Virus record (IMG/VR): IMGVR_UViG_3300025652_000289
Coordinates: 1 to 32,299 of that record
Direction: 5' to 3' (one strand)
DNA: 32,299 bases
DNA from: a virus
The position numbers and the translations under genes were made by a program. Below the pieces are notes generated by a model that did not search any database, was not told the origin of the DNA, and saw nothing but the letters and a program-made list of their open reading frames with translations. Of this stretch, positions 11,109 to 27,388 are shown piece by piece (position 1 is the first letter of the stretch; the number at the start of each line of letters is the position of its first letter).

Positions 11109-11860
11109 AAACAGAACTACAAAGAGGACAATTTAATCCTTACTATGAAATTAACAAATTAAAAATGGCAAAAGTAAATCGAGATATGATACCAATACAT
11201 TCAGAAAATTTTAAATCAAAATTAAATGAATATGGTTGGTTAATGCCTGTGGTAATATCAAACAATGGCGATGTAATAGAGGGGCATCACAGGATTGTAA
11301 GCGCTAAATTATTAAAACAAAAAACTATACCTGCTTATATTATTGATTGGGTAGATACACAAATACAAAAACAACATCTTGATTGTATTATTAGTTTAAA
11401 TAATGGTAACAAAGCTTGGACAATGTTAGATTATTTAAAGGCCTTTAGTGATTATAATGAGGATTATAAAACTGTTTATGAAATATATTTAGCAAATTCA
11501 AATAATATTACAATTGGAAATGTAATTAATCTTTATTTTAAACCTCGTAGTCCACAAAACAACGAAAAATTCAAAAGAGGAAAAGAAAAAATTCAAGATA
11601 TAGATTTTTCTAATTATTTATTAAATGAAATATCCACATTAGTACAATTTTATTCTAAAAGTAAAATAGTTACTTATTGTGTTAGAGAATTTATATCTTT
11701 ATGTTTTTCAAAAGCTAAAAAAAATAAAAAAGCTATACAATATTTGATAAAAGAGTATGAAAAAATGATTAAAGCAAATCATCCAGCAATAACATCAATT
11801 AAAGAATTTAAACCAACTATGGAATTATATTTAAATACATATAATTTAAACCATAAATAA
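11105..11860 (+). CDS. ParB-like nuclease-domain protein, first copy
   Basis: 251 residues. The N-terminal ~90 residues are a ParB/Srx-like fold: MPVVISNNGDVIEGHHRIVS (47-66) is the classic GxxxEGHHR nucleotide-binding loop (E59, H61, H62, R63). The C-terminal ~150 residues are helical and contain KPRSPQNNEKFKRG. In phages such proteins may be nucleases, CTPase-type DNA binders or partners of DNA-modifying enzymes; this one lacks a partition context (no ParA). It ends 12 bases before a second ParB-like gene preceded by an ACGTTATAT motif. Confidence 0.82.
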   Translation: MKTELQRGQFNPYYEINKLKMAKVNRDMIPIHSENFKSKLNEYGWLMPVVISNNGDVIEGHHRIVSAKLLKQKTIPAYIIDWVDTQIQKQHLDCIISLNNGNKAWTMLDYLKAFSDYNEDYKTVYEIYLANSNNITIGNVINLYFKPRSPQNNEKFKRGKEKIQDIDFSNYLLNEISTLVQFYSKSKIVTYCVREFISLCFSKAKKNKKAIQYLIKEYEKMIKANHPAITSIKEFKPTMELYLNTYNLNHK

Positions 11861-11868
11861 CGTTATAT
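11860..11868 (+). promoter_or_regulatory. ACGTTATAT motif, copy 1 (packaging operon)
   Basis: ACGTTATAT ends 4 bases before the ATG at 11873. It lies in a 12-base gap that also holds the last bases of ATAACGTTAT, a perfect palindrome here. First gene of the ParB2-glycosyltransferase-terminase run. The upstream element is degenerate (TATAATTT). Confidence 0.6.
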
Positions 11869-11872
11869 AATT

Positions 11873-12403
11873 ATGATAGAAAAAGTAAATATTAATAATA
11901 TATTTCCAAATCCTGTAAATCCAAGAATAATTAAGGATTTTAAATTTAAAAAATTAGTCAAAAGTATTAAGGAGTTTCCTGAAATGTTAAAACTAAGACC
12001 CATAGTGGTAAATAGCGAAATGGGTATCCTTGGTGGTAATATGAGATACAAAGCCTGTAAGGAGGTTGGATTAAAAGAGGTATATATTATTAAAGCCAAT
12101 AATTTAACAGACAACCAAATTGAGCAATTTATTATAAAAGATAATGTAGGTTTTGGTCAATGGGATTGGGATATGTTAGCAAATCAATGGGACACTCAAT
12201 TGTTAAGCGATTGGGGATTAGATGTATTAGAATTGGAAGAAAACTTTGATGAGGGAGAAATATCAGAAGAAGATAATGTAAATGAAAAGAACGAAGTTGT
12301 AATAAATTTATCTATGCCATATTACCAATATGAAAAAATGGAAATTGATTTTCAAAATTTTATTAAAAAATATCCTAATATTGTATGCAAAATCCAAAAT
12401 TAA
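11873..12403 (+). CDS. ParB-like nuclease-domain protein, second copy
   Basis: 176 residues. NPVNPRIIKDFKFKKL (13-28) and ILGGNMRYKA (52-61) are the ParB N-terminal box I and II equivalents, with glycine-asparagine replacing the EGHHR histidines. The following NVGFGQWDWDMLANQWD is the usual helical extension seen in phage ParB/methylase-associated proteins, and an acidic stretch (DEGEISEEDNVNEKNE) precedes a C-terminal domain. No methyltransferase is fused here, although family relatives often have one. It overlaps the glycosyltransferase gene by 19 bases. Confidence 0.85.
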   Translation: MIEKVNINNIFPNPVNPRIIKDFKFKKLVKSIKEFPEMLKLRPIVVNSEMGILGGNMRYKACKEVGLKEVYIIKANNLTDNQIEQFIIKDNVGFGQWDWDMLANQWDTQLLSDWGLDVLELEENFDEGEISEEDNVNEKNEVVINLSMPYYQYEKMEIDFQNFIKKYPNIVCKIQN

Positions 12404-13743
12404 ATGTATTAATATATCCAATGTTGTCGGTAAATAATTTAAATGCCGATTCAAATTATATTATTATAAAACAATTATGTAATGAATTATTAAAAACAAA
12501 AAGGTATAATTTTTTCCTTTTAATTGATTCAAACAGAAAATATATAAAAGATGATTTAAATTCATTGGTTAAAATTTTAAAAATACCAATGCCAAAAAGT
12601 AAAAAGCATCAGGTAATACATTTTAATTCAAATATATTTAGAGAGATATTTAAAAAATATGCCTTTGATTTAATTTGGAATAATGTTGTTGAGCAAGGAC
12701 ACCATTTTAGGTATTTTCAAGACACCCTATTAGACAACCAAAGGTTTAAAGTGTTTAATTATCATCATTATGTAATACATAGGAGTTTAGAAAAACTAAC
12801 AAACTATTTACCTTGTACTCATATTTTATATGACCAAATAGTAGGTAGTTTAGGAACAGATTTAAATTTCTTTCATACTCAATATTGTTTTGATATGCTA
12901 TTAGAAGAAGCAAACGATATTTTAAATAAAGATAAGGTACAATTATTGAAACAAAAAAGTGTTATAAGTTTAGGTGGTTATACCAACAAAATAAAAAGCA
13001 AAAATAAATATGATAAATTTACCTTTATATATAATCATAGATTAGATGGTTATAAAAATTGGCAAATTACTTTCAATCAATTTGACCAATTATGGGATGA
13101 GGGATTAGATTTTCAAGTTATATTAACAGCAGGGGATAAAGACAACATAAATACTATAAATAAAAAACCTTATTGTATTGTAAAATCTTTTACCAAGCAT
13201 AGTGATTATTTAAAAGAGTTATCTAAATGCCATTGTAATACAATTAATAGTAGACACGAAACCTATTGTATAAGTATAGCAGAAAGTATTATGAATGAAC
13301 AAATAACAGTATTACCTAATAGGTGTACGTTTCCTGAATTAGTAGGCGAGGGATATCCCTACCTATTCCAAAATATAGAGGAGCAATTAGAAATGCTTAG
13401 GAATTTGATTAAAAACAATATAAGGCAATATAATTATAGCACAAAAAATAAACTAACACTAAAAAATCATAGCAAAACAATTGGTTTTTTTTTTAAAAAA
13501 TTAGGTAAACCTGAAAAAAACGATATTTTTAATAAAATAAAAAAACAAAAAACAAAAATTGAAATTAAAAAATACTTATCTAAATATAATGAGGTTAATT
13601 TAACTGTATTTAAAAATTTTATATTTTCATTAGGTTATGCTTCACAAAGTTTTCCAAATCGAAAAATAAAGATAATATTAAATGAATTAGGTTATGATTA
13701 TAACATAAATTTAGATAAATATCAAAAAGTACATTATGAGTAA
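12385..13743 (+). CDS. GT-B (GT4-like) glycosyltransferase with extra C-terminal domain
   Basis: 452 residues. Two Rossmann-like halves: N-terminal LNVLIYPMLS with HHYVIHRSLEKL in the middle, then FIYNHRLDGYKNW (about 214-226) opening the nucleotide-sugar-binding half, and HETYCISIAES (291-301), whose E292-x7-E300 is the EX7E motif of retaining GT4-type enzymes. Residues about 360-452 are an additional lysine-rich helical part not needed for the GT fold. Possible substrates are host surface glycans, virion proteins or phage DNA bases. Location between a ParB-like gene and terminase favours a DNA or packaging-linked role only weakly. Confidence 0.82.
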   Translation: MQNPKLNVLIYPMLSVNNLNADSNYIIIKQLCNELLKTKRYNFFLLIDSNRKYIKDDLNSLVKILKIPMPKSKKHQVIHFNSNIFREIFKKYAFDLIWNNVVEQGHHFRYFQDTLLDNQRFKVFNYHHYVIHRSLEKLTNYLPCTHILYDQIVGSLGTDLNFFHTQYCFDMLLEEANDILNKDKVQLLKQKSVISLGGYTNKIKSKNKYDKFTFIYNHRLDGYKNWQITFNQFDQLWDEGLDFQVILTAGDKDNINTINKKPYCIVKSFTKHSDYLKELSKCHCNTINSRHETYCISIAESIMNEQITVLPNRCTFPELVGEGYPYLFQNIEEQLEMLRNLIKNNIRQYNYSTKNKLTLKNHSKTIGFFFKKLGKPEKNDIFNKIKKQKTKIEIKKYLSKYNEVNLTVFKNFIFSLGYASQSFPNRKIKIILNELGYDYNINLDKYQKVHYE

Positions 13744-14101
13744 ATCCGACAAAATCCGACAAACTAAGCTAAATTTAATTAAGGCATTAGAAAAATCAAT
13801 GGGGGTAATAACTACTGCTTGTAAAAATGTAGGAATACACCGGTCAACCTTTTATGAATATTATAATAAAGATGAGGAGTTCAGAGATGAGATAAATGAT
13901 GTCAGTAATATTGCTCTTGATTATGTTGAAAGTAAAATGTTTAAACAAATTGAAAAAGGTAATACTCAATTAATTAAATTTTATTTAGCTACAAAAGGTA
14001 AGAAAAGAGGTTATATTGAAAGGCAAGAAATAACAGGCGCAGAGGGTATGCCAACTAACTTTCAAATTGAAATAATTGATAAAACCGAAGATACAGACTA
14101 A
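13736..14101 (+). CDS. terS: Terminase small subunit
   Basis: 121 residues: N-terminal helix-turn-helix (VITTACKNVGIHRSTFYEYY, 24-43) for packaging-site binding, then DEEFRDEINDVSNIALDYVE and KFYLATKGKKRGYIER, a pattern seen in phage TerS proteins. The acidic C-terminus overlaps the TerL reading frame by 26 bases, as is common for the pair. It starts 8 bases before the glycosyltransferase stop. Confidence 0.85.
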   Translation: MSKSDKIRQTKLNLIKALEKSMGVITTACKNVGIHRSTFYEYYNKDEEFRDEINDVSNIALDYVESKMFKQIEKGNTQLIKFYLATKGKKRGYIERQEITGAEGMPTNFQIEIIDKTEDTD

Positions 14102-15239
14102 TATTGTTTACAAACATTTAGTAAATAGTAAGAAAAAAATAGTTGTTGAGCAAGGTGGTACTCGTTCAGGAAAAACTTACAATATACTTTTATTTATAAT
14201 ATTTTATTATTGTACCAATCAAAAAGGTAAAATAATTACAATTTGTAGGAAAACCTTTCCAAGTTTACGAGCAACTGTTATGAGGGATTTTTTACAAATA
14301 TTAAAAAACCACCAAATATATAGAGATGAATTTCACAATAAATCCAATAGTGAATATCATTTATTTGGTAATTTAATTGAATTTACCTCTCTTGACCAAT
14401 CACAAAAAATTAGAGGTCGTAAAAGAGATTTATTATTTATCAATGAGGGTAACGAATTATATTGGGAAGATTGGCAACAATTAATATTTAGGACACAAGA
14501 ACGTATTATACTTGATTTTAACCCATCTGATGAATATCATTGGATTTATGATAATGTAATTACGAGACAAGATTGTGATTTTTACAAAACAACTTATTTA
14601 GATAATCCTTTTTTAGAAGATGTTATAAAACAAGAAATAGAAAGGTTAAAAGAAACAGACGACCAATATTGGCAAATATATGGTTTAGGTGAACGAGCAA
14701 CAAGCATAAATACCATTTTTAAATATACAGAGGTTAATAAAATACCTACTGATGCTAAATTAATTGCATATGGTATGGACTTTGGTTACACCAACGACCC
14801 AACCACATTTGTATCAGTTTTTACTTTTGACTATAATTTGTATATTAAAGAACATTTATACAGAACACAGATGACCACTAACGATATACATAAATTTTTA
14901 AAGGAACAAAATTTAAGTAAACATCCAATTTATGCTGATAGTGCCGAGCCAAGATTGATAGATGAGTTAAGGCGAATGGGACATAGTATATTTCCTAGTT
15001 TAAAAGGTAAAGATTCCATTAATGCAGGAATTGACCTGTTAAAAAGGTATAAAATACATATTACAAATGATTCTACAAACGCTATACAAGAATTTAGAAA
15101 TTATAAATGGAAAGAAGATAGGTCAGGTAAATTAATTAACGTACCAGAAGATAAAAATAATCATATAATTGACCCCTGTCGTTATGCTACTTATTCTTTA
15201 TTATCAAGACCAAACTTTGGAAAATATGCAATACAATAA
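14076..15239 (+). CDS. terL: Terminase large subunit (ATPase-nuclease)
   Basis: 387 residues. No in-frame ATG precedes the ATPase core, so a TTG at 14076 is the best start. Walker A is GGTRSGKT (27-34), LLFINE ends in the catalytic E124, and the nuclease half has GMDFGYTNDP (D235), YADSAEPRL (D288) and IIDPCRYA (D366), the three acidic residues of the RNase H-like packaging nuclease. PBSX/terminase-3 type. It pumps DNA into proheads and cuts concatemers. It is separated from the portal gene by 12.6 kb, which is unusual. Confidence 0.95.
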   Translation: MIKPKIQTNIVYKHLVNSKKKIVVEQGGTRSGKTYNILLFIIFYYCTNQKGKIITICRKTFPSLRATVMRDFLQILKNHQIYRDEFHNKSNSEYHLFGNLIEFTSLDQSQKIRGRKRDLLFINEGNELYWEDWQQLIFRTQERIILDFNPSDEYHWIYDNVITRQDCDFYKTTYLDNPFLEDVIKQEIERLKETDDQYWQIYGLGERATSINTIFKYTEVNKIPTDAKLIAYGMDFGYTNDPTTFVSVFTFDYNLYIKEHLYRTQMTTNDIHKFLKEQNLSKHPIYADSAEPRLIDELRRMGHSIFPSLKGKDSINAGIDLLKRYKIHITNDSTNAIQEFRNYKWKEDRSGKLINVPEDKNNHIIDPCRYATYSLLSRPNFGKYAIQ

Positions 15240-15378
15240 AAAATGTAAAATTTGTGATAACGATTATGTGTATATTGGAACAGCACAAAATGGTTATATG
15301 TGGTATTGTAGAAAATGTAAATATATAGACTTAAAAAAGACAAATAATGGACAAAAAACAACTCAAAAAGGAATTTAA
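15226..15378 (+). CDS. Zinc-ribbon small protein
   Basis: 50 residues from the ATG at 15226, overlapping the terL stop by 14 bases. CKIC (C7, C10) and CRKC (C28, C31) form a two-knuckle zinc ribbon; the rest is basic (KYIDLKKTNNGQK). Such mini zinc ribbons usually bind nucleic acid or a polymerase. First of a run of small unknown genes. Confidence 0.68.
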   Translation: MQYNKKCKICDNDYVYIGTAQNGYMWYCRKCKYIDLKKTNNGQKTTQKGI

Positions 15379-15571
15379 TAATCAACCTACTTTAAAAGAT
15401 AAAAGATTATTTGCATTAAAATATGTAGAGAATGAAAATCATAAAGAAATGCTTAAGTATGAAAAACTCTCACATTTTTCTATTCATTGTTTATTTTATA
15501 TGTTTTTAGGAGAAAAATACACTCAAAAAAGAACATACGTTGCTAAACAAAAAAAACAAAGAAGTTTTTAA
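15347..15571 (+). CDS. Hypothetical basic protein
   Basis: 74 residues, starting 32 bases before the zinc-ribbon stop in another frame. Highly basic N- and C-termini with a central aromatic segment (KLSHFSIHCLFYMFLGEK, 44-61). No family recognised. Its end abuts the promoter region at 15574. Confidence 0.6.
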   Translation: MDKKQLKKEFNNQPTLKDKRLFALKYVENENHKEMLKYEKLSHFSIHCLFYMFLGEKYTQKRTYVAKQKKQRSF

Positions 15572-15573
15572 TA

Positions 15574-15605
15574 GTTGCCTATTTAATATATTTTATATAT
15601 ATTTG
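15574..15605 (+). promoter_or_regulatory. Promoter of small-gene island, copy 1
   Basis: GTTG (15574-15577), a 20-base spacer and TATATTTG (15598-15605), 24 bases before the ATG at 15630. The -33 region shares the 13-mer ATAGTTGCCTATT (15571-15583) with the promoter at 16526. Confidence 0.78.
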
Positions 15606-15629
15606 TTATATAATATTAAAACAGACATT

Positions 15630-15782
15630 ATGAAATTAACATTTGAAGAAACCTCAGCATTAATTGATGTTGAAGCAACATTAAAAATGCTATTAACAGC
15701 AGACAATTTAAAAACATATCAAAAAGAATGGTGTGTAAAATCTTATAAAAACATAGTTAACTTTAGGCATCAACACGAATAA
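15630..15782 (+). CDS. Small acidic/helical protein, unknown
   Basis: 50 residues from the ATG at 15630; an in-frame TTG 90 bases upstream would place the promoter inside the gene and is rejected. Helical: FEETSALIDVEATLKMLLTA, then W32CVKSYKN. First gene behind the island promoter, hence probably early and well expressed. No family recognised. Confidence 0.68.
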   Translation: MKLTFEETSALIDVEATLKMLLTADNLKTYQKEWCVKSYKNIVNFRHQHE

Positions 15783-15783
15783 T

Positions 15784-16062
15784 ATGGGAACATCAAAAGA
15801 CAATTTAATAGACGAAATAGATAAGTTAAAAAAAGAATTAGCAACAGCTAAAAAACATACTTATATATATGAGACAAACTCTTTACATTGTAATGATGGA
15901 GAATTATATATTTATTATGGTAATGAAGATAATTGTTTAGTTTTTAACGTAGAACAATTGTATAAAGATTTACCTTTTATAATAACACAGGTTGTCAAAG
16001 AACAAAATAAAATGCAAAAAATGTATTTAGATTTAATAAAAGAATCAATTAAAGAAATATAA
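15784..16062 (+). CDS. Hypothetical protein with N-terminal coiled coil
   Basis: 92 residues: coiled-coil start (NLIDEIDKLKKELATAKK), central beta segment (YETNSLHCNDGELYIYYGNE), helical end. No membrane segment. Two bases after the previous stop and one base before the next start, so it is in the same operon. No recognised family. Confidence 0.68.
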   Translation: MGTSKDNLIDEIDKLKKELATAKKHTYIYETNSLHCNDGELYIYYGNEDNCLVFNVEQLYKDLPFIITQVVKEQNKMQKMYLDLIKESIKEI

Positions 16063-16063
16063 T

Positions 16064-16557: not shown

Positions 16558-16585
16558 ATTTATATTAATAATTAAAACAAACAAA

Positions 16586-16771: not shown

Positions 16772-16781
16772 AACTTAATAA

Positions 16782-17174: not shown

Positions 17175-17204
17175 AGGTGTTTAGAAATAGACACCTTTTT
17201 TTTT
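17175..17204 (+). terminator. Rho-independent terminator closing small-gene island
   Basis: A 9-bp stem (17175-17183 with 17188-17196, one G-T pair) with a GAAA tetraloop and nine T. It isolates the early-like island from the tail module that starts at 17239. Confidence 0.92.
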
Positions 17205-17225
17205 GATTAAATTTGAGAATTAAAT

Positions 17226-17234
17226 ACGTTATAT
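17226..17234 (+). promoter_or_regulatory. ACGTTATAT motif, copy 2 (tail module)
   Basis: ACGTTATAT ends 4 bases before the ATG at 17239, directly after a strong terminator, so a promoter is required here. No TATATTTG is present in the gap. Confidence 0.7.
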
Positions 17235-17238: not shown

Positions 17239-17889
17239 ATGGAATTAAAGTTAAATATACCAACTGAACTAAACGAAATAACATTAAAGCAATATAAAAA
17301 GTTTATTAGTATTGGTGAAAACAACCAAGACCCAAATTTTATACAGGCAAAAATGATAGAAATATTTTGTGGTGTTAGCCATAAATTTGCTACACTAATG
17401 AAATATAGTGATGTAGAAGAAATTACAGGTATGATTAATAAATTACTAATTCAACAACCTAAATTAGTAACCACCTTTAAAATGGATGGTATTGAATATG
17501 GCTTTATTCCTGATTTAGATGATATGACTTTAGGAGAGTATATTGATTTAGATACTTATACAGGAGACAACAATAATATAGAGGTTGCTATGAATGTTTT
17601 ATATAGACCAATTGTTACAAAACTTAAAAACAAATACGTAATTGAAAAATATAATCCTGATAATAGAGATAAAATGTTAAATATGCCAATGGATGCTGTT
17701 GTTAGTTCATTGTTTTTTTTTCTGAATTTAGGACTGGAGTTGTCGGAAATTACCCTGAGTTATTTGAACAAACCACAGAAAATCAATTCGGTGGAGTACA
17801 AAATTTTGCGAGAAAATATGGCTGGTATCAGTCACTTTTTGCCTTATCTGGAGGAGACGTTATCAGAATTAAAAATATCACTGAATTAA
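17239..17889 (+). CDS. Tail assembly chaperone (gpG-like), frame-0 product
   Basis: 216 residues. N-terminus LNIPTELNEITLKQYKKF is typical of Bacteroidetes tail chaperone genes; the middle has a conserved-looking GFIPDLDDMTLGEYIDLD (89-106). At residues 159-161 (FFF) a run of nine T lies just before an alternative frame. Reading on in frame 0 yields 55 more residues; the -1 frame yields a longer product ending at 17975. Bases after the slippery run are richer in G/C and use codons such as CTG, GAG and TCG that are rare elsewhere, as expected for double coding. Role: binds tape measure during tail assembly. Confidence 0.82.
   Translation: MELKLNIPTELNEITLKQYKKFISIGENNQDPNFIQAKMIEIFCGVSHKFATLMKYSDVEEITGMINKLLIQQPKLVTTFKMDGIEYGFIPDLDDMTLGEYIDLDTYTGDNNNIEVAMNVLYRPIVTKLKNKYVIEKYNPDNRDKMLNMPMDAVVSSLFFFLNLGLELSEITLSYLNKPQKINSVEYKILRENMAGISHFLPYLEETLSELKISLN
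17713..17721 (+). other. Slippery T9 run for -1 frameshift
   Basis: Nine consecutive T starting on a codon boundary, giving T TTT TTT in frame 0 and allowing a -1 slip. Downstream, the -1 frame is open to the stop at 17973-17975, which overlaps the next ATG (17972) as ATGA. Confidence 0.75.
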
Positions 17890-17975
17890 AATTCCACGAA
17901 TGTTTTTTAATGTTAGCATTTATGAAAGATAAAAACGAATTAGAACAAAGAGAACTTAAAAAAAAATTTAAATGA
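17721..17975 (+). CDS. Tail chaperone -1 frameshift extension (gpT-like)
   Basis: 84 residues in the -1 frame, with no own start codon: SEFRTGVVGNYPELFEQ, then NFARKYGWYQSLFALSGGDV, then HECFLMLAFMKDKNELE and a lysine-rich end. The 'YGWYQSLFAL...GD' core matches a family normally found right after this tail gene in Bacteroidetes phages. Fused to residues 1-161 it gives a product of about 245 residues, the counterpart of lambda gpGT, which links tape measure to tail tube. The ATGA overlap with the next gene supports use of this frame. Confidence 0.78.
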   Translation, partial: SEFRTGVVGNYPELFEQTTENQFGGVQNFARKYGWYQSLFALSGGDVIRIKNITELKFHECFLMLAFMKDKNELEQRELKKKFK

Positions 17976-18442
17976 GCCAACAAGGTAGTAGGGCATTTTA
18001 TAATGTTACAGAAACAATTAAAACACAATTATTAGCAGATATTAATGTTAATACAGTCACCACAGGAGATATAACAGAGGTTGATTTACAAAAACAAACC
18101 ATATTTCCATTATCACATATTATGGTTAATAACGTATCACAAGAGGATGGTGTATTAAGGTTTAATGTTAGTATTATGTCAATGGATATAGTTGACCAAA
18201 GTAAAGAAATTACAGTTGATATTTTTGAGGGTAACAATAATTTACAAGATATACTAAATACACAATTGTCTGTTTTAAATAAATTAACACAAATATTAAG
18301 AGGTGGTACTTTGCATTTTGATAAATACCAATTAGATGGTAATCCAAATATTGAGCCATTTTATGATAGGTTTGAAAATGAATTGGCAGGTTGGACAGCT
18401 TCAATGGATATTTTAATTTATAATGATATAAGTATTTGCTAA
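17972..18442 (+). CDS. Tail completion/terminator-like protein
   Basis: 156 residues: NVTETIKTQLLADINVNTVT (11-30), then QKQTIFPLSHIMVNNV, then repeated strands (RFNVSIMSMDIVDQ) and a final strand pair. The short alpha/beta fold with N-terminal helix and paired strands resembles tail terminator proteins (lambda gpU/minor tail Z class), and the position after the tail chaperone fits. The stop overlaps the next start by TAATG. The family name is inferred, as I recognise the sequence only as a recurrent flavophage structural gene. Confidence 0.65.
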   Translation: MSQQGSRAFYNVTETIKTQLLADINVNTVTTGDITEVDLQKQTIFPLSHIMVNNVSQEDGVLRFNVSIMSMDIVDQSKEITVDIFEGNNNLQDILNTQLSVLNKLTQILRGGTLHFDKYQLDGNPNIEPFYDRFENELAGWTASMDILIYNDISIC

Positions 18443-19035
18443 TGAAATTAGAAGAATTAAATAAAATGTTTAATGATTTTGGTAAATATATGGTTACTGA
18501 ATCACAAAAAAACCTACAAACAGATAAAAAAGGAGGAGGTCCTTTATATAATTCTATTACTTATGATGTGGATGATAGTAATGGTAAATTTGTATTTACT
18601 TTTTCAATGCAAGATTATGGAGAATTTCAAGACAAAGGTGTAAAAGGTGCTGACCCTGATAAATTATCACCAAATGCACAAATAAAAGGACAACAAGCAC
18701 CAAATTCACCATATAGGTTTGGTAGTGGTAGTGCAAAGGGTACTTGGAAAACATTTGTTCAAAGTGTAGCTGCTTGGGCGCAAATTAAAAATATAAGATT
18801 AAGACAATATAAAACAGTAAATGGTGTAAGGAAATCTACAGGTAAATTTGCTAAAGGTAATTATGAATCTATTGGTTATGTAATTGCTAAAAATATTTAT
18901 AATAGAGGATTAAAACCATCATTTTTTTATACCAAACCTTTTAATAAAGCATTTGAACAATTACCAGACGAGCTTTTTGAATCATTTGCTATTGATGTAG
19001 AACACGGATTTAATGAACAAATAAATAAAAAATAA
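18442..19035 (+). CDS. Structural protein, possible HK97 gp10-like connector
   Basis: 197 residues from the ATG at 18442, two codons after a TTG in the same frame; the TAATG overlap decides the start. GEFQDKGVKGADPDKLSPN (57-75) and AKNIYNRGLKPSFFY near residues 152-166 are reminiscent of gp10/tail-completion proteins, which often contain 'Y...F.D.G..G....R.FF'. Its role would be closing the head-tail joint or tail end. The stop overlaps the next start by one base. Confidence 0.6.
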   Translation: MKLEELNKMFNDFGKYMVTESQKNLQTDKKGGGPLYNSITYDVDDSNGKFVFTFSMQDYGEFQDKGVKGADPDKLSPNAQIKGQQAPNSPYRFGSGSAKGTWKTFVQSVAAWAQIKNIRLRQYKTVNGVRKSTGKFAKGNYESIGYVIAKNIYNRGLKPSFFYTKPFNKAFEQLPDELFESFAIDVEHGFNEQINKK

Positions 19036-20063
19036 TGGCAAATAGATTACTTAGAAGTCCACAATATATTACACAAACAGCAAACTCAACAGTTTTGTCG
19101 GTTGTATTAAAAATAACTATTGATGGTACGTTAAGATATACTTTAATAAAATCAGCAAGTATAAATGTACCTGTTTTATTTGAATGGGCTGAATTAGCAA
19201 GAGATTATTTAGATATTACTTATACAGGAACACCATCAACACAAGTTGCTTTTCCAATAGGATTAGATTTAAGATTCTACGATGGAGTTAATGGTACAGG
19301 TACACAAGTTGGATTTACATATTCAGAAAATCATAATGGCTTTGATGGTTATGGAACTTTTTATGAAGAAGCAAATCCTAATATGAGTACAACTGAATTT
19401 CCTGCAATTTCAAACTATACACAATCAGGTAGTTCATCTTTGGGTGTTAAAACATATACTATGTATGCTCCTAAAAATGTAGAGCTTTATGTTCCAAGTA
19501 TTTTAAATGGTACAGTAGTTTATAATGCATCAGGATATAATACAACATCTGTTGTTATAAATGGAACAACTGTAACAATAAATAGAATAGATTGTACTAA
19601 ATATACCTCTAGCTATGGTTATACTGAACTTAATGGGTCATCAGTAGGTTTTAAAGTTAGCTTTATTAATAAGTATGGTGCAATACAAAGTGAGTTTTTT
19701 ACATTAAAAGCTATAAGAGATATAAAAGCAAAAAAGAAAACATATAATTCAAATATTATAAGTTCTACAGGTACTTATTCTGTAAACGCACATACTAAAC
19801 AAAATTATAATATAAATGCAATACAATCAATTACATTAAATTCTTTTTATGTTCCTGAATATTATAGCGAGGTTTATTCTGAAATGTTATTATCTGAAAA
19901 AGTTTGGGTTCGTTATAGAGAAAAATCAACAGGTAATTTTATTACAATTCCAATAAATATAAAGGGTAATAATATGACTTATAAAAACAATATAAATGAT
20001 AAATTAATACAATTTGAATTTAATTTTGATATGTCCTTTGATTATATAAACAATATTAGATAA
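19035..20063 (+). CDS. Beta-rich tail/baseplate structural protein
   Basis: 342 residues, rich in Thr, Ser, Tyr and Asn, with no charged coiled coil or membrane segment: many short strands as in baseplate or fibre-attachment proteins (VLFEWAELARDYLDITY, 47-63). I cannot assign a family. Position between completion proteins and the large 20063 protein, with one-base overlaps at each end, places it in the tail module. Confidence 0.6.
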   Translation: MANRLLRSPQYITQTANSTVLSVVLKITIDGTLRYTLIKSASINVPVLFEWAELARDYLDITYTGTPSTQVAFPIGLDLRFYDGVNGTGTQVGFTYSENHNGFDGYGTFYEEANPNMSTTEFPAISNYTQSGSSSLGVKTYTMYAPKNVELYVPSILNGTVVYNASGYNTTSVVINGTTVTINRIDCTKYTSSYGYTELNGSSVGFKVSFINKYGAIQSEFFTLKAIRDIKAKKKTYNSNIISSTGTYSVNAHTKQNYNINAIQSITLNSFYVPEYYSEVYSEMLLSEKVWVRYREKSTGNFITIPINIKGNNMTYKNNINDKLIQFEFNFDMSFDYINNIR

Positions 20064-22186
20064 TGCAAAAATTACAATTATATATTGGTGGTGAAAGAAT
20101 AGATTTGTTTAAAGATGAACAGGTTTCATTTAATCAATCAATCCAAAATATAAAAGACCCTGCAAAGATATTTACAGAGTTTACTCAAACATTTAATGTA
20201 CCAGCTTCAAAAGGCAATAATAAAATTTTTAAGCATTATTATAATTATAATATTACTGGTGGTTTTGATGCAAGGAATAAAGTAGATAGTTTAATAGAAT
20301 TAAATAATGTTTCTTATAAACAAGGTTATATTAAATTAGAGGGCGTTGATTTAAAAGTAAATAAACCTTATTCTTATCGTATTACATTTTTTGGTGAAAC
20401 AGTAAGTTTAAAAGATTTAATAGGCGATGATAAATTAGGTAAATTATCAAAATTATCTGATTATGATTTAACCTACAATTCAACTAATATAAAAGCTAAA
20501 CTACAAAGTGGTACTGATATTATCACACCTTTAATTACATCAGGCGCAAGTGATGCTGATGATGATGTTACTAATCATTCGAGATTATTTTATAACTCTT
20601 TGACACACGGTACAAATAATGGGAATTTATATTGGCATACCGGAGGTGGTACAAATGCAAATGGTGTTTTATGGTCAGATTTAAAATATGCTTTAAAAAT
20701 TAGAAGAATAATAGAAGCCATAGAAAATCAATATGTTGGCATAGAATTTACAGATGATTTTTTTACCTCTACCAATACTGTATATGAAAATCTTTATATG
20801 TGGTTACATAGAAAAAAAGGTAATGTACAACAAGCATCACAAGTATTAGAATTTCCTACTTTGGTTAATGGTTTTGGATTACCAATACAATTTACCACTA
20901 TGTTAAATGGTACCTCATTAGAAGTTTATTCATCTTGTAATCCCTACAATTCAAGTGTTCCTTGTCCTAACACCTCTTTACCATCAATTCAACAAGAACT
21001 ACAACTTACAACCACATCTAGTGTAGGTTATACTGTAGTAATAAATCGTAATGGTTCGGTATGGGCAACAATACCAAATTTGACAGGCACACAAAGTTTA
21101 GATGAGGGAGATATGGGGGTTATGGATGAAGCAAGTTATACAATAACTATTATTACAACACAAAATATAACATTTTCTAATATAGAATGGAATTTATCAG
21201 GTTTTTTTAGTGGTTCTGGTTGGAGTGAAACATATCAAACAGGTAGTTTTACTGCTACTGCTGATTTTGAGTTTATTATACAGCAACAAATACCAGATAT
21301 GAAAATTATAGATTTTTTAACAGGTATATTTCGTATGTTTAATTTAACAGCATTTTATGTTAGCGACCCACAGGATTCAGATTTTGGTAAAATTAAAGTA
21401 CAAAAGTTAGATGATTTTTATGCAGCAGGTACAAGTTATGATATAAGCGAATATGTAGATACTAATACAAGTAAAATTAATATAGCATTACCATATAAAG
21501 AAATAAATTTCACTTATAAAGGCACAGGTACTTTGTTAGCTAAACAATACAAACAATTACAAGGTAAATCTTGGGGTGCTGAACAATTTGCAGGTAATTC
21601 CACAGTAGGTAATAATTTTGATGCTCCAAATCCTAAATATGATGTTGTTTTACCTTTTGAACATATGCAAATGGAAAGGTTGGTTGATGGAAACCCATCT
21701 ACACCAAATCAAACAACAATACAATATGGTTTTTTTGTTGATGATAATTTAGAAGCATATTATGGTGACCCTTTACTTTTTTATCCAATATTACAAACAT
21801 CAACCACATATCCAATCTCATTTTTAGATGACCTTCAAGGTACACATAGTAAATTAACCTCTTATTATATACCTAGTAATAGTGTAAGTATTAATTCATC
21901 TGTAAGTGCTAAAAATATTAATTTTTATTTAGAAACAAATGAGTATACTTTAGATTCATCTTTTAATGAAACATTATTTTATGAAAACTATTTAACATAC
22001 ATACAAGACATATTTAATAGTAAAAGAAGAATAATAAAATTAACTGCTTATTTACCTTTAAAAATTATTTATAAATTAAATATGAATGATAAGCTAATTA
22101 TAAATAACCAAAATTTTACTATAAACACTATTAACACTAATTTGATTACAGGTAAAAGTTCAATAGAATTATTAAACGATTTATGA
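20063..22186 (+). CDS. Large tail/baseplate protein
   Basis: 707 residues. N-terminal LQLYIGGERIDLFKDEQVSF and FTEFTQTFNVPASKGNNKIF (39-58), followed by HYYNYNITGGFDARN, is a signature I associate with the largest structural protein of flavophage tails. Central IPDMKIIDFLTGIFRMFN (about 412-429) recalls the recurrent 'distal tail/baseplate hub' helix. C-terminal ~100 residues are beta-rich (LPLKIIYKLNMNDKLIINNQ). It is probably a distal tail or baseplate hub protein. Encoded just upstream of a 46-residue gene and the tape measure. Confidence 0.65.
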   Translation: MQKLQLYIGGERIDLFKDEQVSFNQSIQNIKDPAKIFTEFTQTFNVPASKGNNKIFKHYYNYNITGGFDARNKVDSLIELNNVSYKQGYIKLEGVDLKVNKPYSYRITFFGETVSLKDLIGDDKLGKLSKLSDYDLTYNSTNIKAKLQSGTDIITPLITSGASDADDDVTNHSRLFYNSLTHGTNNGNLYWHTGGGTNANGVLWSDLKYALKIRRIIEAIENQYVGIEFTDDFFTSTNTVYENLYMWLHRKKGNVQQASQVLEFPTLVNGFGLPIQFTTMLNGTSLEVYSSCNPYNSSVPCPNTSLPSIQQELQLTTTSSVGYTVVINRNGSVWATIPNLTGTQSLDEGDMGVMDEASYTITIITTQNITFSNIEWNLSGFFSGSGWSETYQTGSFTATADFEFIIQQQIPDMKIIDFLTGIFRMFNLTAFYVSDPQDSDFGKIKVQKLDDFYAAGTSYDISEYVDTNTSKINIALPYKEINFTYKGTGTLLAKQYKQLQGKSWGAEQFAGNSTVGNNFDAPNPKYDVVLPFEHMQMERLVDGNPSTPNQTTIQYGFFVDDNLEAYYGDPLLFYPILQTSTTYPISFLDDLQGTHSKLTSYYIPSNSVSINSSVSAKNINFYLETNEYTLDSSFNETLFYENYLTYIQDIFNSKRRIIKLTAYLPLKIIYKLNMNDKLIINNQNFTINTINTNLITGKSSIELLNDL

Positions 22187-22323
22187 TAAAAAATATAATA
22201 ACATTATTAAAATTTGTTGATTACGAAACAGAGAATATTCGTATAGCAAAAGGTAAAAATAAATTAGCTACAACTTGGAAAGAAGCATTTAAACAAATAA
22301 AAGAGAATTACAATGGCAATTAA
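22183..22323 (+). CDS. Small protein before tape measure
   Basis: 46 residues, ATGA overlap with the large tail gene and 11-base overlap with the tape measure start. KFVDYETENIRIAKGKNK (10-27) then a TTWKEAFKQIKENYN tail, basic. It sits where a tail chaperone might be expected but is too short for that. No recognised family. Confidence 0.65.
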   Translation: MIKNIITLLKFVDYETENIRIAKGKNKLATTWKEAFKQIKENYNGN

Positions 22324-24232
22324 AAAAGTAATAATAATAAGTGCTGAAACACAAAAGGCACAAAAGGCATTAGAGGATGTTAATTTAACAATTGAACAAC
22401 AAGAGGACTTAATTAAAGATACTCGTAGAGAAATCGAAAAATTAGAGGATTTAAGAAATAAGACAAGTAAAAAAGACCAAAATAGGATAAAAGAATATAA
22501 CGAAAAAATAGATAAATCCAACCAATTATTAAAAAGGACTAAAACAAGGTTACAGGAAAACAAACAGGAGAGAACAAAAAATAATAAAGCATTAAAAGAG
22601 AATGTAAAACAACAAAGAGACCTTACAGGTGTTTTAGGAATTGTTGACAAACAAACAGGAGGCCTTATAAGTAGTTTTCAAGGTTTTACTGGAAGCATAG
22701 GTGGTGCCACAAAAGGTCTTGGTTTACTTACCAAAGCATTTATCGCTACAGGTATTGGTGCTTTTGTTTTAGTTGTTACTTCATTAACTGCAGCATTTAC
22801 ACAAAGTGAGGAGGGTCAAGAAAAACTACAAAGAGGTTTAAAAATGATGGGTGCAGTGGTCAAAAATGTTATGGATGCTTTCGCTGATTTAGGTGAGGGT
22901 ATTATAGATGCTATTACTAAACCACAACAAGCTTGGAAAAGTTTTAAAGATGGTTTTAAGAAATTTATATCTGACCCAATAGGCACAGTAAAAGAGGTTT
23001 ATACTGAAGCAAAAGAAGCCGCAACTGATTTTATAGAAGAAACTAAAAAAGAAGTGCAAACAATAGATGAGGTGACTAAAGCAAGGCAAAAAGCACACCA
23101 TATAGAAAGAGATTTACAAGTTGAAAGGGCACAAGCAAATAGAGAAATAAACGATATAAGATTACAGGCAGAGGATAGAGAAAATAAAACTGCTTCTGAA
23201 CGTATTGCTTTACTTAGAAAAGCACAAGAAATAGAAGAAGATATTACTCAAAAAGAAATACAAGCTAAAAAACTTTTAATTGAAGCGCAAGAAACAGAAA
23301 TGGCTCAAGGTAAAAATACCATTCAAGATAAAGACAAACTTGCTAAATTACAAGCTGAATTAATAAATTTAGATACTAAAAAATTAAGAAGCCAAAGGTT
23401 ATTACAAACACAAATTACAACTGCAATAAATCAAGAAAAAGCAGAAAAACAAAAGAAAAAAGAAGAAGAAGCTAAAGATTTAGAAGAAGCACAGCAAAAA
23501 GAGAAAGATAGGTTAACTCGTATTAAAGAAATTCAAGATGAGTTTCAAGCTATGGTTGATGAAGAAAAAGCCGTAACAGAAGAAGAAAAAGCTGAATTAC
23601 AAAAAGAAAAAGAATTAGCAGAGTTAGAAAAATTAAATGCAACTGAAGAACAAAAGGCAAAAATTGTTGCTTATTGGAATGGTCAAATTGAAAAAGGAAA
23701 AGATAAAGATGCAATTAATGATAAAAAAAGAGACAAAGCTGTTGCTAATGCTAAAATGGATATTGCTAAACAATCAATGGCTCTAATTGGTGAAATAGCA
23801 GGTAAAGGAAGTGCTATTGGTAAAGCTATGGCTATAGGTCAAGCAACTATTTCAGGTATTGAGGGTGTACAAAACGCTTTTAGTACTGCACAAGAAAGTC
23901 CTATTACTGCTGTATTTCCAGCTTATCCATATATCCAGGCAGGTTTAGCAGGTGCATTTAGTGCTTTACAAATTCAAAAAATAGCCTCTACAAAAGCAGA
24001 TGGAAAAGGCGCTACACCAAATCCAATTCCAAGTGGGGGAGGTGGTGGCGCTGCTGCACCAACAGCATCTATTCCACCAGCGTTTAATGTTGTAGGTCAA
24101 GGAGAAACAAGTCAATTAGCAGATGCAATAGGTGGACAAGAACAGCAACCTGTTCAAGCATATGTGGTTTCTAATGATGTTACAACAGCACAAGGGTTAG
24201 AAAGAAATATTGTTGAGGGTGCTACTATATAA
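22313..24232 (+). CDS. Tail tape measure protein
   Basis: 639 residues: N-terminal long coiled coil (about 10-105), a glycine-rich hydrophobic segment (about 108-165, including GLLTKAFIATGIGAFVLVV) for membrane insertion, then a long charged helical rod (about 225-450) and a Gly/Ala/Pro-rich C-terminus. This is the tape-measure architecture. By the usual rule of about 0.15 nm per residue the tail would be roughly 95 nm. It ends before the ACGTTATAT motif at 24254. The 4.3 kb separation from the chaperone pair at 17239 is unusual. Confidence 0.88.
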   Translation: MAIKKVIIISAETQKAQKALEDVNLTIEQQEDLIKDTRREIEKLEDLRNKTSKKDQNRIKEYNEKIDKSNQLLKRTKTRLQENKQERTKNNKALKENVKQQRDLTGVLGIVDKQTGGLISSFQGFTGSIGGATKGLGLLTKAFIATGIGAFVLVVTSLTAAFTQSEEGQEKLQRGLKMMGAVVKNVMDAFADLGEGIIDAITKPQQAWKSFKDGFKKFISDPIGTVKEVYTEAKEAATDFIEETKKEVQTIDEVTKARQKAHHIERDLQVERAQANREINDIRLQAEDRENKTASERIALLRKAQEIEEDITQKEIQAKKLLIEAQETEMAQGKNTIQDKDKLAKLQAELINLDTKKLRSQRLLQTQITTAINQEKAEKQKKKEEEAKDLEEAQQKEKDRLTRIKEIQDEFQAMVDEEKAVTEEEKAELQKEKELAELEKLNATEEQKAKIVAYWNGQIEKGKDKDAINDKKRDKAVANAKMDIAKQSMALIGEIAGKGSAIGKAMAIGQATISGIEGVQNAFSTAQESPITAVFPAYPYIQAGLAGAFSALQIQKIASTKADGKGATPNPIPSGGGGGAAAPTASIPPAFNVVGQGETSQLADAIGGQEQQPVQAYVVSNDVTTAQGLERNIVEGATI

Positions 24233-24253
24233 ATACAAAATTTTTAATTAAAT

Positions 24254-24262
24254 ACGTTATAT
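24254..24262 (+). promoter_or_regulatory. ACGTTATAT motif, copy 3 (protease gene)
   Basis: ACGTTATAT ends 4 bases before the ATG at 24267. An upstream TACAAAAT (24234-24241) lies 12 bases before it, at the same spacing as copies 4 and 5. Confidence 0.65.
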
Positions 24263-24266
24263 TATT

Positions 24267-24866
24267 ATGAAGATTATAGAATTAGTCTTAGACGAAAATC
24301 ACGAAGATACAGGTATAGAGGCAATATCAATAGTAGAAAACCCCGCTATTGAAGAAGATTTTATTGCATTAAAGTCAGATGAAATAAAACTTGCTGAAAT
24401 ATCTAAAGAGAAAAAATTATTAATGGGTGCTTTACTTGTACCAAATAAACCTATTTATAGGCAAACAGGAGAAGATGAATATTATATTTATTTTTCTAAA
24501 AATACAATTGAAAAGGCATCTCAATTATATTTAAAAAATGGTAACCAAAATAATTCAACTTTAGAACACCAACATCAATTAAGTGGATTAACACTTGTTG
24601 AATCTTGGATAGTTGAAGATGATGTAAAAGACAAAAGTAGGTTATACAATATGAATGTACCTATTGGTACTTGGATGGGTACTGTAAAGGTAAATAACGA
24701 TGAGGTATGGAATGAGTATATTAAAACTAATAAAGTTAAAGGTTTTAGTATAGAGGGATATTTTGCTGATAAAATGGAACGTCCTAAAGAATCAATTGAA
24801 GAAAAAATGGAGGTTAAAGCTAATAAATTACTTGAATCAATAAAAAATATTATTAGTGAGAATTAA
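24267..24866 (+). CDS. Prohead maturation protease, XkdF/S78-2 type
   Basis: 199 residues similar to the XkdF-like serine protease family: DTGIEAISIVENPAIEEDF (16-34) opening, then STLEHQHQLSG (H101, H103) for the catalytic histidine, and VKGFSIEGYF with S161 as the likely nucleophile. It cleaves scaffold and capsid precursors during head maturation. The C-terminal 30 residues are helical and may bind the scaffold, whose gene lies two genes downstream. Confidence 0.85.
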   Translation: MKIIELVLDENHEDTGIEAISIVENPAIEEDFIALKSDEIKLAEISKEKKLLMGALLVPNKPIYRQTGEDEYYIYFSKNTIEKASQLYLKNGNQNNSTLEHQHQLSGLTLVESWIVEDDVKDKSRLYNMNVPIGTWMGTVKVNNDEVWNEYIKTNKVKGFSIEGYFADKMERPKESIEEKMEVKANKLLESIKNIISEN

Positions 24867-25029
24867 AAAAAAAATAAATCCAAATAGTCCTTATTTTATA
24901 CCTGCAAGAGGTGGTCGTATAGGAGGTAGGAGAGCTTGTTTGTGTGTTGATACAAACGATTATTCTATTGAATGTTGCGATGGTAGTTTATGGGCGCAAG
25001 GTATTGGTTCAATATCAAGAACAAATTGA
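24856..25029 (+). CDS. Cysteine-rich small protein (CLC...CCDGSLWAQG)
   Basis: 57 residues from a GTG start that overlaps the protease end by 11 bases; no ATG is available. ARGGRIGGRRACLC (CLC at 28-30) and ECCDGSLWAQGIGSI (CC at 40-41) match a short protein recurrent in flavobacterial phages near capsid genes. Four cysteines in pairs suggest metal binding or disulphides in the virion. Function unknown. Confidence 0.75.
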   Translation: MRIKKKINPNSPYFIPARGGRIGGRRACLCVDTNDYSIECCDGSLWAQGIGSISRTN

Positions 25030-25052
25030 AAATGCAAAATTTTAAATAAACC

Positions 25053-25061
25053 ACGTTATAT
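25053..25061 (+). promoter_or_regulatory. ACGTTATAT motif, copy 4 (scaffold-capsid operon)
   Basis: ACGTTATAT ends 8 bases before the ATG at 25070. TGCAAAAT at 25033-25040 lies 12 bases upstream. Drives scaffold and major capsid genes if it is a promoter. Confidence 0.68.
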
Positions 25062-25069
25062 AAATAATT

Positions 25070-25708
25070 ATGAAATCTACTGAAATGTTAGACAAAATCA
25101 AGACACTTTTAAACATCGAGGTGAAACTTGAAGAAATGAAATTAGAAAATGGTACAGTTGTCGAAGCTGAATCATTTGAAAAAGGTAAAGACATTTTCAT
25201 TATCACAGATGATGAGAAAGTAGCCCTACCGGTAGGCGAATACATCCTAGAAGATTCTCGACTTATAGTTGTAGAAGAAGAGGGGAAAATCGCAGATGTT
25301 AGAAACGTATCTGATGAGGTACCACAAAAAGAAAAAAATATGGATAAAGAAATTACTGAAGACTTAGATTACAAAGACGAAGAAATGAGAGATGATGGCA
25401 AAGAAGCTGCTGTTAATGATTGGGAGGGTATGGAAAAAAGAATTAAAAATCTTGAAGATGCCATAGCTGACCTAAAATCTAAAATGGGAGAAAAAGATGT
25501 TAAAGTTTCTGAGGAGGACAAAGAAGAACTTAAACAAGAAGTCAAAGAGGAAGTAAATCAACAGTTAAAAGAAGAATTATCTCAACCTGCATCTGCACCT
25601 ATTAAACATACACCAGAGGTAGGTAACAAACAAAAACAAAATTTTAGAATTAGTCCTAACAGGCGACCTTCTACTATGGACTATATCTTAAATCAATTAA
25701 ATAAATAA
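25070..25708 (+). CDS. Head scaffolding protein
   Basis: 212 residues between protease and capsid genes. Residues 1-75 are a compact beta domain (VKLEEMKLENGTVVEAESF, then DDEKVALPVGEYILEDSR), followed by a highly acidic, then coiled-coil segment (about 119-175) and a basic C-terminal tail (NFRISPNRRPSTMDYILNQL) that would contact capsid subunits. This is the usual layout of a phage scaffold, removed by the upstream protease. No enzyme motif. Confidence 0.75.
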   Translation: MKSTEMLDKIKTLLNIEVKLEEMKLENGTVVEAESFEKGKDIFIITDDEKVALPVGEYILEDSRLIVVEEEGKIADVRNVSDEVPQKEKNMDKEITEDLDYKDEEMRDDGKEAAVNDWEGMEKRIKNLEDAIADLKSKMGEKDVKVSEEDKEELKQEVKEEVNQQLKEELSQPASAPIKHTPEVGNKQKQNFRISPNRRPSTMDYILNQLNK

Positions 25709-25726
25709 AATTAAAATTCCAAAATT

Positions 25727-26695
25727 ATGCCACAACCAACTATCACAACTACTTACGCAGGAGAATTTGCAGGTAAGTACATTGCTGCCGCTCTACTGAG
25801 TGGTAACACTTTAAGTCAGGGTGCAATTGAGATTAAACCAAATATCAAATTTAAAGAAGTTATGAAAAAAGTAGTTACTTCTGGTTTAATTACAGATGAC
25901 TCTTGTGACTTCACATCTGCTGGGTCTGTAACACTTACAGAAAGAATAATCCAGCCAGACCAATTTCAAGTAAACCTTGAATTATGTAAAACACCTTTTG
26001 AATCAGACTGGGGTGCAGTATCTATGGGATATTCTGCATTTGATAACCTACCTCCTGATTTCTCAAGTTTTTTAATCGCTCACGTTGCAGAACAAGTATC
26101 TGCTTCTACAGAAAGCAATATCTGGCAAGGTAACCTTGGTGGTGCTGTTGCAGGAGAATTTAATGGATTTACCACTTTAGCTACTGCTGATGCTGATGTA
26201 ATTGATGTTGCCGCTGTAGGTGGAGGAGTAAATTCAGGAAATGTAATTGCTGAATTAGGAAAAATTGTAGATGCTATACCAAGCACATTATACAATAAAG
26301 ATGATATGTTTATCTATGTATCACAAAATATCGCTAAAGCATATGTAAGAGCTTTAGGTGGTTATGCTGCTTTATCTAATGTTGCAGGAACTGAAAATGT
26401 AGGTTCTGTTGGTGCAAATGGTATCGATGGCAGAGGAACACTATGGTATGGTGGAGGTGAAAACCTTTCTATCGATGGTGTAAAAATCTTTGTTGCTAAT
26501 GGATTACCAAATAACTATGCAATGGCTGCTCAAAGAAGTAATTTATACTTCGGAACAGGATTAATGTCTGACTATAACCTAGTTAAATTAATCGATATGG
26601 CTGACATAGATGGTAGTAAAAATGTTAGAGTAATAATGAGATTTACTGCAGGAGTACAATATGGAATAGGTTCTGAAATAGTTCTTTATTCTTAA
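25727..26695 (+). CDS. Major capsid protein, HK97-fold
   Basis: 322 residues. It sits between scaffold and tail-tube genes; ITTTYAGEFAGKYIAAALLS (6-25) is the N-terminal arm, EQVSASTESNIWQGN (121-135) lies in the spine-helix region, and MFIYVSQNIAKAYVRALGG (197-215) in the second spine. These are features of Bacteroidetes-phage HK97-type capsid proteins. Codon use is richer in C-ending codons than the neighbours, as expected for very highly expressed genes. A strong terminator at 26715 follows. Confidence 0.88.
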   Translation: MPQPTITTTYAGEFAGKYIAAALLSGNTLSQGAIEIKPNIKFKEVMKKVVTSGLITDDSCDFTSAGSVTLTERIIQPDQFQVNLELCKTPFESDWGAVSMGYSAFDNLPPDFSSFLIAHVAEQVSASTESNIWQGNLGGAVAGEFNGFTTLATADADVIDVAAVGGGVNSGNVIAELGKIVDAIPSTLYNKDDMFIYVSQNIAKAYVRALGGYAALSNVAGTENVGSVGANGIDGRGTLWYGGGENLSIDGVKIFVANGLPNNYAMAAQRSNLYFGTGLMSDYNLVKLIDMADIDGSKNVRVIMRFTAGVQYGIGSEIVLYS

Positions 26696-26714
26696 TAAAT
26701 AAATTAACCAAAAT

Positions 26715-26750
26715 AAGGGTAGGTGGGTAAATGCCTACTTACCCTTTTTT
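26715..26750 (+). terminator. Rho-independent terminator after major capsid gene
   Basis: AAGGGTAGGTGGG (26715-26727) pairs with the 26733-26746 arm through G-C, A-T and G-T pairs, with a short AT loop, then six T. It is the longest stem of the terminators seen. Confidence 0.92.
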
Positions 26751-26767
26751 AATAAAAAAAAATAATT

Positions 26768-27295
26768 ATGGCTTGTACATTATCTACCGGAAGAAAAGTC
26801 CCGTGTAAAAGTGCCTTTGGAGGCATAAAAAGTGTATATTTTGCAGATTTTGGTAGTTTAACTGCTGTAACTGTGGATTCTACTACTAAACAAGTAACTA
26901 CTTTAACAGGTAGTCCAACTTGGTATGAATATGATGTAAAAGGTAATTCTTCTTTAGAAAGTACTGTAACAAGTTCTAGAGAAAATGGAACTACTTTTTT
27001 TACACAAACTTTAAATTTAACTTTAACTTACTTAGATGCTAAAACTCAAGCTGAAATTCAAGTGCTTGCAGTAGGTAGACCTTATATTGTGGTTGAAGAT
27101 TATTATGGAAACCAATTTTTATGTGGATTCGAGAATGGATGTGAATTGACTTCAGGAACTACGGTTACTGGGGCTGCCGCAGGAGACCTCTCAGGATTTA
27201 CTATGGTGTTTGAAGCGATGGAAGAAACAGCACCATATTTCCTAGATTCAGGATTAGTAACTGGCGATGCTACACAAATCGACCCAACAGCATAA
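26768..27295 (+). CDS. Probable major tail tube protein
   Basis: 175 residues: MACTLSTGRKVPCKSAFGGI, then strand-rich sequence with TFFTQTLNLTLTYLDAKTQA (76-95), and GFENGCELTSGTTV. A beta-sandwich tube protein of this length, next to the capsid gene and alone between two strong terminators, fits the major tail protein, the second most abundant virion component. It has three cysteines (3, 13, 120). Family not proven; an abundant head decoration protein is the alternative. Confidence 0.75.
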   Translation: MACTLSTGRKVPCKSAFGGIKSVYFADFGSLTAVTVDSTTKQVTTLTGSPTWYEYDVKGNSSLESTVTSSRENGTTFFTQTLNLTLTYLDAKTQAEIQVLAVGRPYIVVEDYYGNQFLCGFENGCELTSGTTVTGAAAGDLSGFTMVFEAMEETAPYFLDSGLVTGDATQIDPTA

Positions 27296-27318
27296 TCCTA
27301 ATTTATATATTTGAAATT

Positions 27319-27346
27319 AAGCACTCTTATGGGGTGCTTTTTTTTT
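27319..27346 (+). terminator. Rho-independent terminator after tail tube gene
   Basis: AAGCACTC (27319-27326) pairs with GGGTGCTT (27332-27339) over a 5-base loop, followed by nine T including the stem end. Confidence 0.92.
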
Positions 27347-27379
27347 GATTTTTAATTTCTGCAAAATAAGTTAATTAAT

Positions 27380-27388
27380 ACGTTATAT
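27380..27388 (+). promoter_or_regulatory. ACGTTATAT motif, copy 5 (portal operon)
   Basis: ACGTTATAT ends 5 bases before the ATG at 27394, after a terminator. TGCAAAAT at 27360-27367 lies 12 bases upstream. Would drive portal, connector, fibre and, on a circular map, the lysis genes. Confidence 0.7.

Follow-up and report, generated by a model that had tools for sequence, protein, structure and literature searches.

Among phage-encoded sigma factors that serve late genes are gp55 of T4 and gp28 of SPO1. Such sigmas are also known to act at the late promoters of phages phiEco32 and 7-11 (PMC8948821, PMC4331800), and flavobacteria have promoters with a CGT box for extracytoplasmic function (ECF) sigmas (PMC9723704). 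Here, we analyze a 32,299-nucleotide viral sequence, the IMG/VR record IMGVR_UViG_3300025652_000289 (this whole stretch is called the window below), in which a short motif, ACGTTATAT, lies just upstream of the start codons of packaging and morphogenesis genes, and an open reading frame (ORF) at 8261–8737 on the + strand encodes what appears to be a sigma factor. Its relatives and its base composition point to Bacteroidota-type bacteria as hosts.

The closest described systems share some of the traits of this locus. As with SaPh711_gp47 of Salmonella phage 7-11 (PMC8948821), a phage sigma would act on the host core RNA polymerase, and a few copies of its presumed element head late units. Late promoters of 7-11 are also bipartite, GTAAtg-(16)-aCTA, with transcription starting 6 to 9 bp from the element (PMC8948821). 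The two systems differ in promoter sequence and in host phylum, the window protein was compared with phage ECF sigmas at the level of the fold, and we found no description for 7-11 of promoters fused to start codons. In phiEco32, the sigma gp36 likewise controls middle and late genes via a short element (PMC8948821, PMC4331800), tAATGTAtA, with starts 6 to 8 bp downstream, but this is a single-element promoter without a −35 box, and gp79 inhibits the host sigma-70. Bacterial ECF sigmas and the SM6 promoters of Flavobacterium psychrophilum (PMC9723704) share with our locus a two-domain sigma and a −10 element with a CGT box; unlike them, the locus has a phage gene, no identified anti-sigma, a −35 box of the (R)CAAA or AAAAC type, and a predicted leaderless geometry. 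Nearest of all is the cultured Nonlabens phage P12024S (NC_018271), whose gp33 is homologous by profile and whose late genes carry a start-proximal CGTTAATA with the ATG at +12, although the −10 variant is different and the −35 spacing is ACAAA-N14. Judged by titles, no promoter study of P12024S was found, nor did a literature search for late promoters of Bacteroidota phages return any.

In the window, an exact scan of both strands detects ACGTTATAT five times on the + strand (at 11860, 17226, 24254, 25053, and 27380) and never on the reverse strand. Dinucleotide shuffles contain a mean of 0.25 copies, with none of 100 shuffles reaching five. The gap from the motif to the ATG is 4, 4, 4, 8, and 5 nucleotides at copies 1 to 5, while at a random site the first ATG falls 4 to 8 nucleotides away with a probability of ∼0.11. 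Copies 3 to 5 are preceded, exactly 12 nucleotides upstream, by TRCAAAAT, and copies 2 and 5 follow intrinsic terminators at 17175–17196 and 27319–27339 on the + strand. On all these points, positions, strand, distances, upstream box, terminators, and less than one copy expected by chance, the first-pass annotation of this DNA was accurate. Its gene names agree with PHROG matches for the ParB-like, protease, scaffold/capsid, and portal operons; its "tail chaperone" is not backed by a family match, that gene falling in a PHROG of unknown function. Copies with one mismatch are in weak excess (22 versus 14.4 expected, with 4 of 100 shuffles reaching 22), so window counts were restricted to exact copies. 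A scan for the sigma-70 consensus gave matches not above those in shuffles and was uninformative.

We gathered ∼230 related contigs by three IMG/VR searches with the capsid, terminase, and portal proteins. ACGTTATAT occurs in them 226 times in coding orientation versus once in reverse, nearly always with an ATG 2 to 8 nucleotides downstream, and 161 of 166 unique contexts head orthologs of the same five genes as in the window, the other 5 heading none of these. The first-pass annotation had asked whether relatives might keep the genes and lose the motif; instead, many of them carry it ahead of these same five genes. When the upstream regions of the five ortholog sets are aligned, TCGTTATAT and CCGTTATAT occupy the place of ACGTTATAT in many relatives, and the core is for that reason better written nCGTTATA(T). 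The part that is invariant across relatives is CGTTAT(A); the first A of ACGTTATAT is often T or C in them, and its last T is sometimes A or C. The −10 core is therefore taken to be CGTTAT(A) rather than the TATAT proposed earlier, and (R)CAAA, 15 nucleotides upstream, is taken as its −35 box. Among 389 unique start-proximal CGTTATA sites, [AG]CAAA starts exactly 20 nucleotides 5′ of the C in 285, the runner-up offset accounting for 6 sites, which places the TRCAAA and CGTTAT hexamers 15 nucleotides apart. This resembles the spacing of ECF promoters. The box is nearly universal in the scaffold (82/85), portal unit (114/119), and protease (81/84) classes, is shrunk to AAA in the class of the gene at 17239 (44/44), and mostly so in the ParB class (33/44). 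Refined in this way, the element reads TRCAAA-N15-CGTTAT(A), and the ATG lies 12 to 16 nucleotides after the C of CGTT.

This element lacks the TAnnTTTG of host sigma-A promoters. Host-type −7 boxes resembling TATATTTG are present at four early or middle genes of the window (at 9489–9496 on the + strand, 20 nucleotides from the ATG, and at 6169, 15598, and 16550) and lie 20 to 28 nucleotides from the ATG, unlike the late motif, so that a design with two promoter classes, as first suggested, holds. The comparative evidence likewise favors the earlier view of late promoters that lie close to the start codon, differ from those of the host, and give messages with little or no leader.

What might read this element? 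The ORF at 8261–8737, which the first-pass annotation overlooked, matches a phage sigma family weakly (E 0.068), and the protein on its own has no Pfam match. Its 50 relatives make the signal clearer: in the alignment of 51 members, 30 match the PHROG sigma family, 22 match Pfam Sigma70_r2 (best 4.4e-6), and 2 match region 4_2 (best 0.012). Searched against the PDB, the resulting profile gives five weak matches, four of which are sigma factors, with E-values of 0.1 to 1.8 that are below significance alone. An AlphaFold model of the 158-residue protein has two helical domains (residues 4–76 and 98–157; predicted local distance difference test [pLDDT] 86, predicted template modeling score [pTM] 0.48). 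The top 30 rows of a PDB fold search with this model are sigma factors, nearly all ECF, aligned over their full length with a best E of ∼1e-3, and include Mycobacterium tuberculosis SigL, SigE, and SigH, Escherichia coli sigma-E, and SigW; in a viral structure library, phage ECF sigmas were matched. The predicted protein has the layout of ECF (group IV) sigmas, sigma2 and sigma4 alone in ∼150 to 200 residues, and the Sigma70 region 2 and region 4 profiles are detectable through its homologs. We take it to be a divergent ECF-type sigma factor, on profile and model evidence, and likely the natural reader of the motif. A second, very divergent sigma-like ORF lies just past the terminase large subunit in some relatives (L094:4147–4719, L100:5299–5871, and L101:2080–2652). 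A 3.5-kb contig from a Campylobacterales bin carries a relative of the sigma (43%) but is probably a misbinned phage fragment and so no guide to the host.

The mechanism that we propose, and consider highly probable, is that this phage sigma brings host RNA polymerase to late promoters whose mRNAs are leaderless (leaders of 0 to 4 nucleotides). ACGTTATAT would be the −10 part of the bipartite promoter TRCAAA-N15-CGTTAT(A), recognized by host RNA polymerase carrying the sigma encoded at 8261–8737, whose region 4 would bind (R)CAAA and whose region 2 would open CGTTAT. Once made, the sigma would turn on five units (packaging, tail, protease, scaffold–capsid, and portal). With its start 12 nucleotides downstream from the C of CGTT, transcription would begin on the A of the ATG at three copies and 1 or 4 nucleotides ahead of it at the other two. 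Judged from its sequence, the window appears to hold what makes up a phage late-sigma system of the phiEco32 and 7-11 type: a sigma factor together with repeated promoter-like elements at late units that are unlike host promoters.

The prediction for the start site draws on the position of the ATG. Protein alignments mostly begin at this codon, and in all five classes variation from codon 2 onward is greatest at the third codon position, so the ATGs are probably genuine. They lie 12, 13, 14, 15, and 16 nucleotides after the C in 173, 101, 26, 40, and 38 of the 389 sites, respectively. Offset 12, which is 7 nucleotides past the end of CGTTAT, is an A in 97% of the sites where the ATG is at least 15 nucleotides away, most of these being from one gene class. 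With the sigmas of phiEco32 and 7-11, transcription starts 6 to 9 bp from the element (PMC8948821), and when this is combined with offset 12, the predicted leaders are 0 nucleotides for copies 1 to 3, 4 nucleotides for copy 4, and 1 nucleotide for copy 5. We infer that the late mRNAs have no leader or almost none. Promoters might instead depend on the sigma without leaderless translation being the main mode, if RNA started inside or beyond the ATG and a downstream in-frame codon were used, or if ordinary leaders came from read-through. In 87 of 91 relatives, the scaffold genes do have another ATG in frame within 10 codons, but it is almost always missing from the other four classes, where coding conservation at the N terminus runs from the first ATG; read-through mRNA could cover the protease and scaffold genes, which have no upstream terminator, but the terminator-led classes leave only ∼45 nucleotides for promoter and leader. 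We regard this possibility as unlikely.

The link between the sigma and the motif comes from their distribution. The sigma profile matches 37 of 40 phage records, the three misses being contigs of 20 to 24 kb. Records scoring at least 210 bits carry CGTTATA start sites, except G039, a 20-kb contig. Those scoring 104 to 111 bits (G010, G011, G014, and G015) carry CGTTATCA at gene starts, 3 to 4 per genome, with the ATG at offset 12 and an AAAAC-type −35 box, and six records at 68 to 86 bits have no CGTTAT set. A sigma tree, with long branches, separates the same groups. P12024S gp33, annotated as Sigma-70 region 2 and scoring 36 bits, was identified through annotation and profile only, a single-protein tblastn search of cultured phages with the window sigma having given no match. 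P12024S has five coding-strand copies of CGTTAATA at gene starts, all five with the ATG at offset 12; two further gene starts carry CGTTAATT and CGTTACTA. Three sigma clades are thus paired with the −10 variants CGTTATAT, CGTTATCA, and CGTTAATA, the ATG typically being 12 nucleotides downstream in all three. When loci were fetched by the sigma alone, CGTTATA preceded 27 starts, versus a mean of 0.6 and a maximum of 9 for 150 permuted words. The CGT box of flavobacterial ECF promoters would also suit a host ECF sigma exploited by the phage, with the phage sigma serving otherwise, but the motif rarely occurs without the phage sigma, its −10 sequence varies with the clade of that sigma, and loci found by the sigma alone carry the motif, which makes this explanation very improbable.

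That the motif acts as a promoter is argued for by what surrounds it. A terminator T-run lies immediately 5′ of it in 44 of 44 relatives in the 17239 class and in 116 of 122 in the portal class. Since terminators precede these two of the five genes in nearly every relative, a promoter must lie there, and the RNA would be expected to start within the short interval occupied by the two boxes. Whatever gene comes first in a unit, it is that gene that has the motif, and internal operon genes lack it: in L122, L139, and L158, it precedes an ORF read by eye as terminase-small-like, and in L302 (position 198), a GIY-YIG homing-endonuclease-like ORF, also read by eye, sits between promoter and protease, with its ATG at offset 12, the protease having no motif. 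Two ParB-like proteins are encoded beside copy 1, and the motif could be a site for one of these, or for another phage activator or repressor, acting on host sigma-A promoters elsewhere; however, in the portal and 17239 classes, the space from terminator to ATG fits little beyond the motif, which is asymmetric, has promoter-like two-box spacing, and keeps a near-fixed distance to the ATG, so we give this explanation very little weight. A parS-like ParB-binding site was ruled out, the site being asymmetric and bound to starts. Least credible is a translation-initiation signal in longer leaders that would substitute for the Shine–Dalgarno sequence, which Bacteroidota do not use (PMC6847099), since despite the suggestive position 4 to 8 nucleotides 5′ of the ATG, the motif heads transcription units and not the internal genes of these operons, passes to the new first gene when the GIY-YIG-like ORF is inserted, and comes with a conserved (R)CAAA box 20 nucleotides upstream and with terminators, which fit recognition in DNA.

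Several points weigh against sigma-directed, leaderless late transcription. The E-values of the fold matches are modest (1e-3), and the packing of the two domains in the model is uncertain (pTM 0.48). Copies 11860 and 17226 in the window lack the C of the −35 box. The ATG offset varies from 12 to 16, giving some predicted leaders of 1 to 4 nucleotides, and leaderless mRNAs are just 5.5% in F. psychrophilum (PMC9723704), while 87% of F. johnsoniae leaders are longer than 10 nucleotides (PMC6847099). The pairing of sigma and motif is a correlation along the phage phylogeny that may partly reflect shared ancestry, and k-mer enrichment resolved no motif in clades B and C, which carry sigma relatives. 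Finally, a search 5′ of 7408 for a promoter of the host type that would serve the sigma operon found no TAnnTTTG within 90 nucleotides in 55 of 55 relatives; early expression of the sigma is for this reason assumed. The sigma gene is located in the early part of the genome, beside recombination and replication genes. At 7363–7408, the operon of an AAA ATPase gene and the sigma gene begins right past a terminator, and a TATATTTA-like stretch near the ATG of this operon is common in relatives. In clades B and C (L423–L428, L433–L436, L441, and L442), differing A/T-rich patterns lie close to gene starts, e.g., TTAATTTTTAAAATAAA before the ATG in B.

The five units are all on the + strand. The putative late promoter 1 has its −10 at 11860–11868, without a (R)CAAA box, and a predicted start at 11873, the A of the ATG of a unit that runs from a ParB-like gene to the small and large terminase subunits (11873–15239, by PHROGs). 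Putative promoter 2, with its −10 at 17226–17234 and AAA at 17209–17211, has a predicted start at 17239, again the A of the ATG, and heads a presumed tail morphogenesis unit (17239–24232, as delimited by ORFs). In putative promoter 3, TACAAA at 24234–24239 precedes a −10 at 24254–24262, with the predicted start at 24267 on the A of the ATG of the prohead protease gene (24267–24866, PHROG head maturation protease). Putative promoter 4 (TGCAAA at 25033–25038; −10 at 25053–25061; predicted start at 25066) serves the scaffold and capsid genes (25070–26695, PHROG), and putative promoter 5 (TGCAAA at 27360–27365; −10 at 27380–27388; predicted start at 27393) serves a gene of unknown function followed by the portal gene (27394–29957, PHROG). 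Between the capsid gene and an ORF at 26768, which has no promoter motif, lies a terminator (26715–26768) that is likely partial, lowering expression beyond the capsid; similar hairpins with T-runs are present in relatives of clades A to C. A long, repetitive tail-fiber–like frame is open at both ends of the window (1–3483 and 30500–32299) with similar repeats, which suggests that the contig holds almost a whole genome, broken within this gene.

Within the searchable literature, the occurrence of such a system in Bacteroidota phages, with this sigma family and with promoter and start codon fused at all late units, appears to be new. On balance, we think it somewhat more likely than not that a widespread group of Bacteroidota phages fuses every late promoter to a start codon, making all virion operons leaderless via a phage sigma whose −10 specificity has repeatedly diversified along with its promoters, although the mRNAs of their hosts normally have leaders, which lack Shine–Dalgarno sequences. 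The proposed mechanism would explain how late genes are controlled in a group of phages that is abundant yet almost uncultured, naming both a protein and a DNA element, and P12024S, which has the same kind of sigma and signal, offers with its Nonlabens host a cultured model in which it can be tested. The sigma and promoter clades are well suited, as a natural series, to studying how the −10 is read by ECF region 2. If the late mRNAs are truly leaderless, the phage would rely on a mode of initiation that serves only a small share of the genes of its hosts, with a bearing on how start codons are chosen by Bacteroidota ribosomes in the absence of Shine–Dalgarno pairing.

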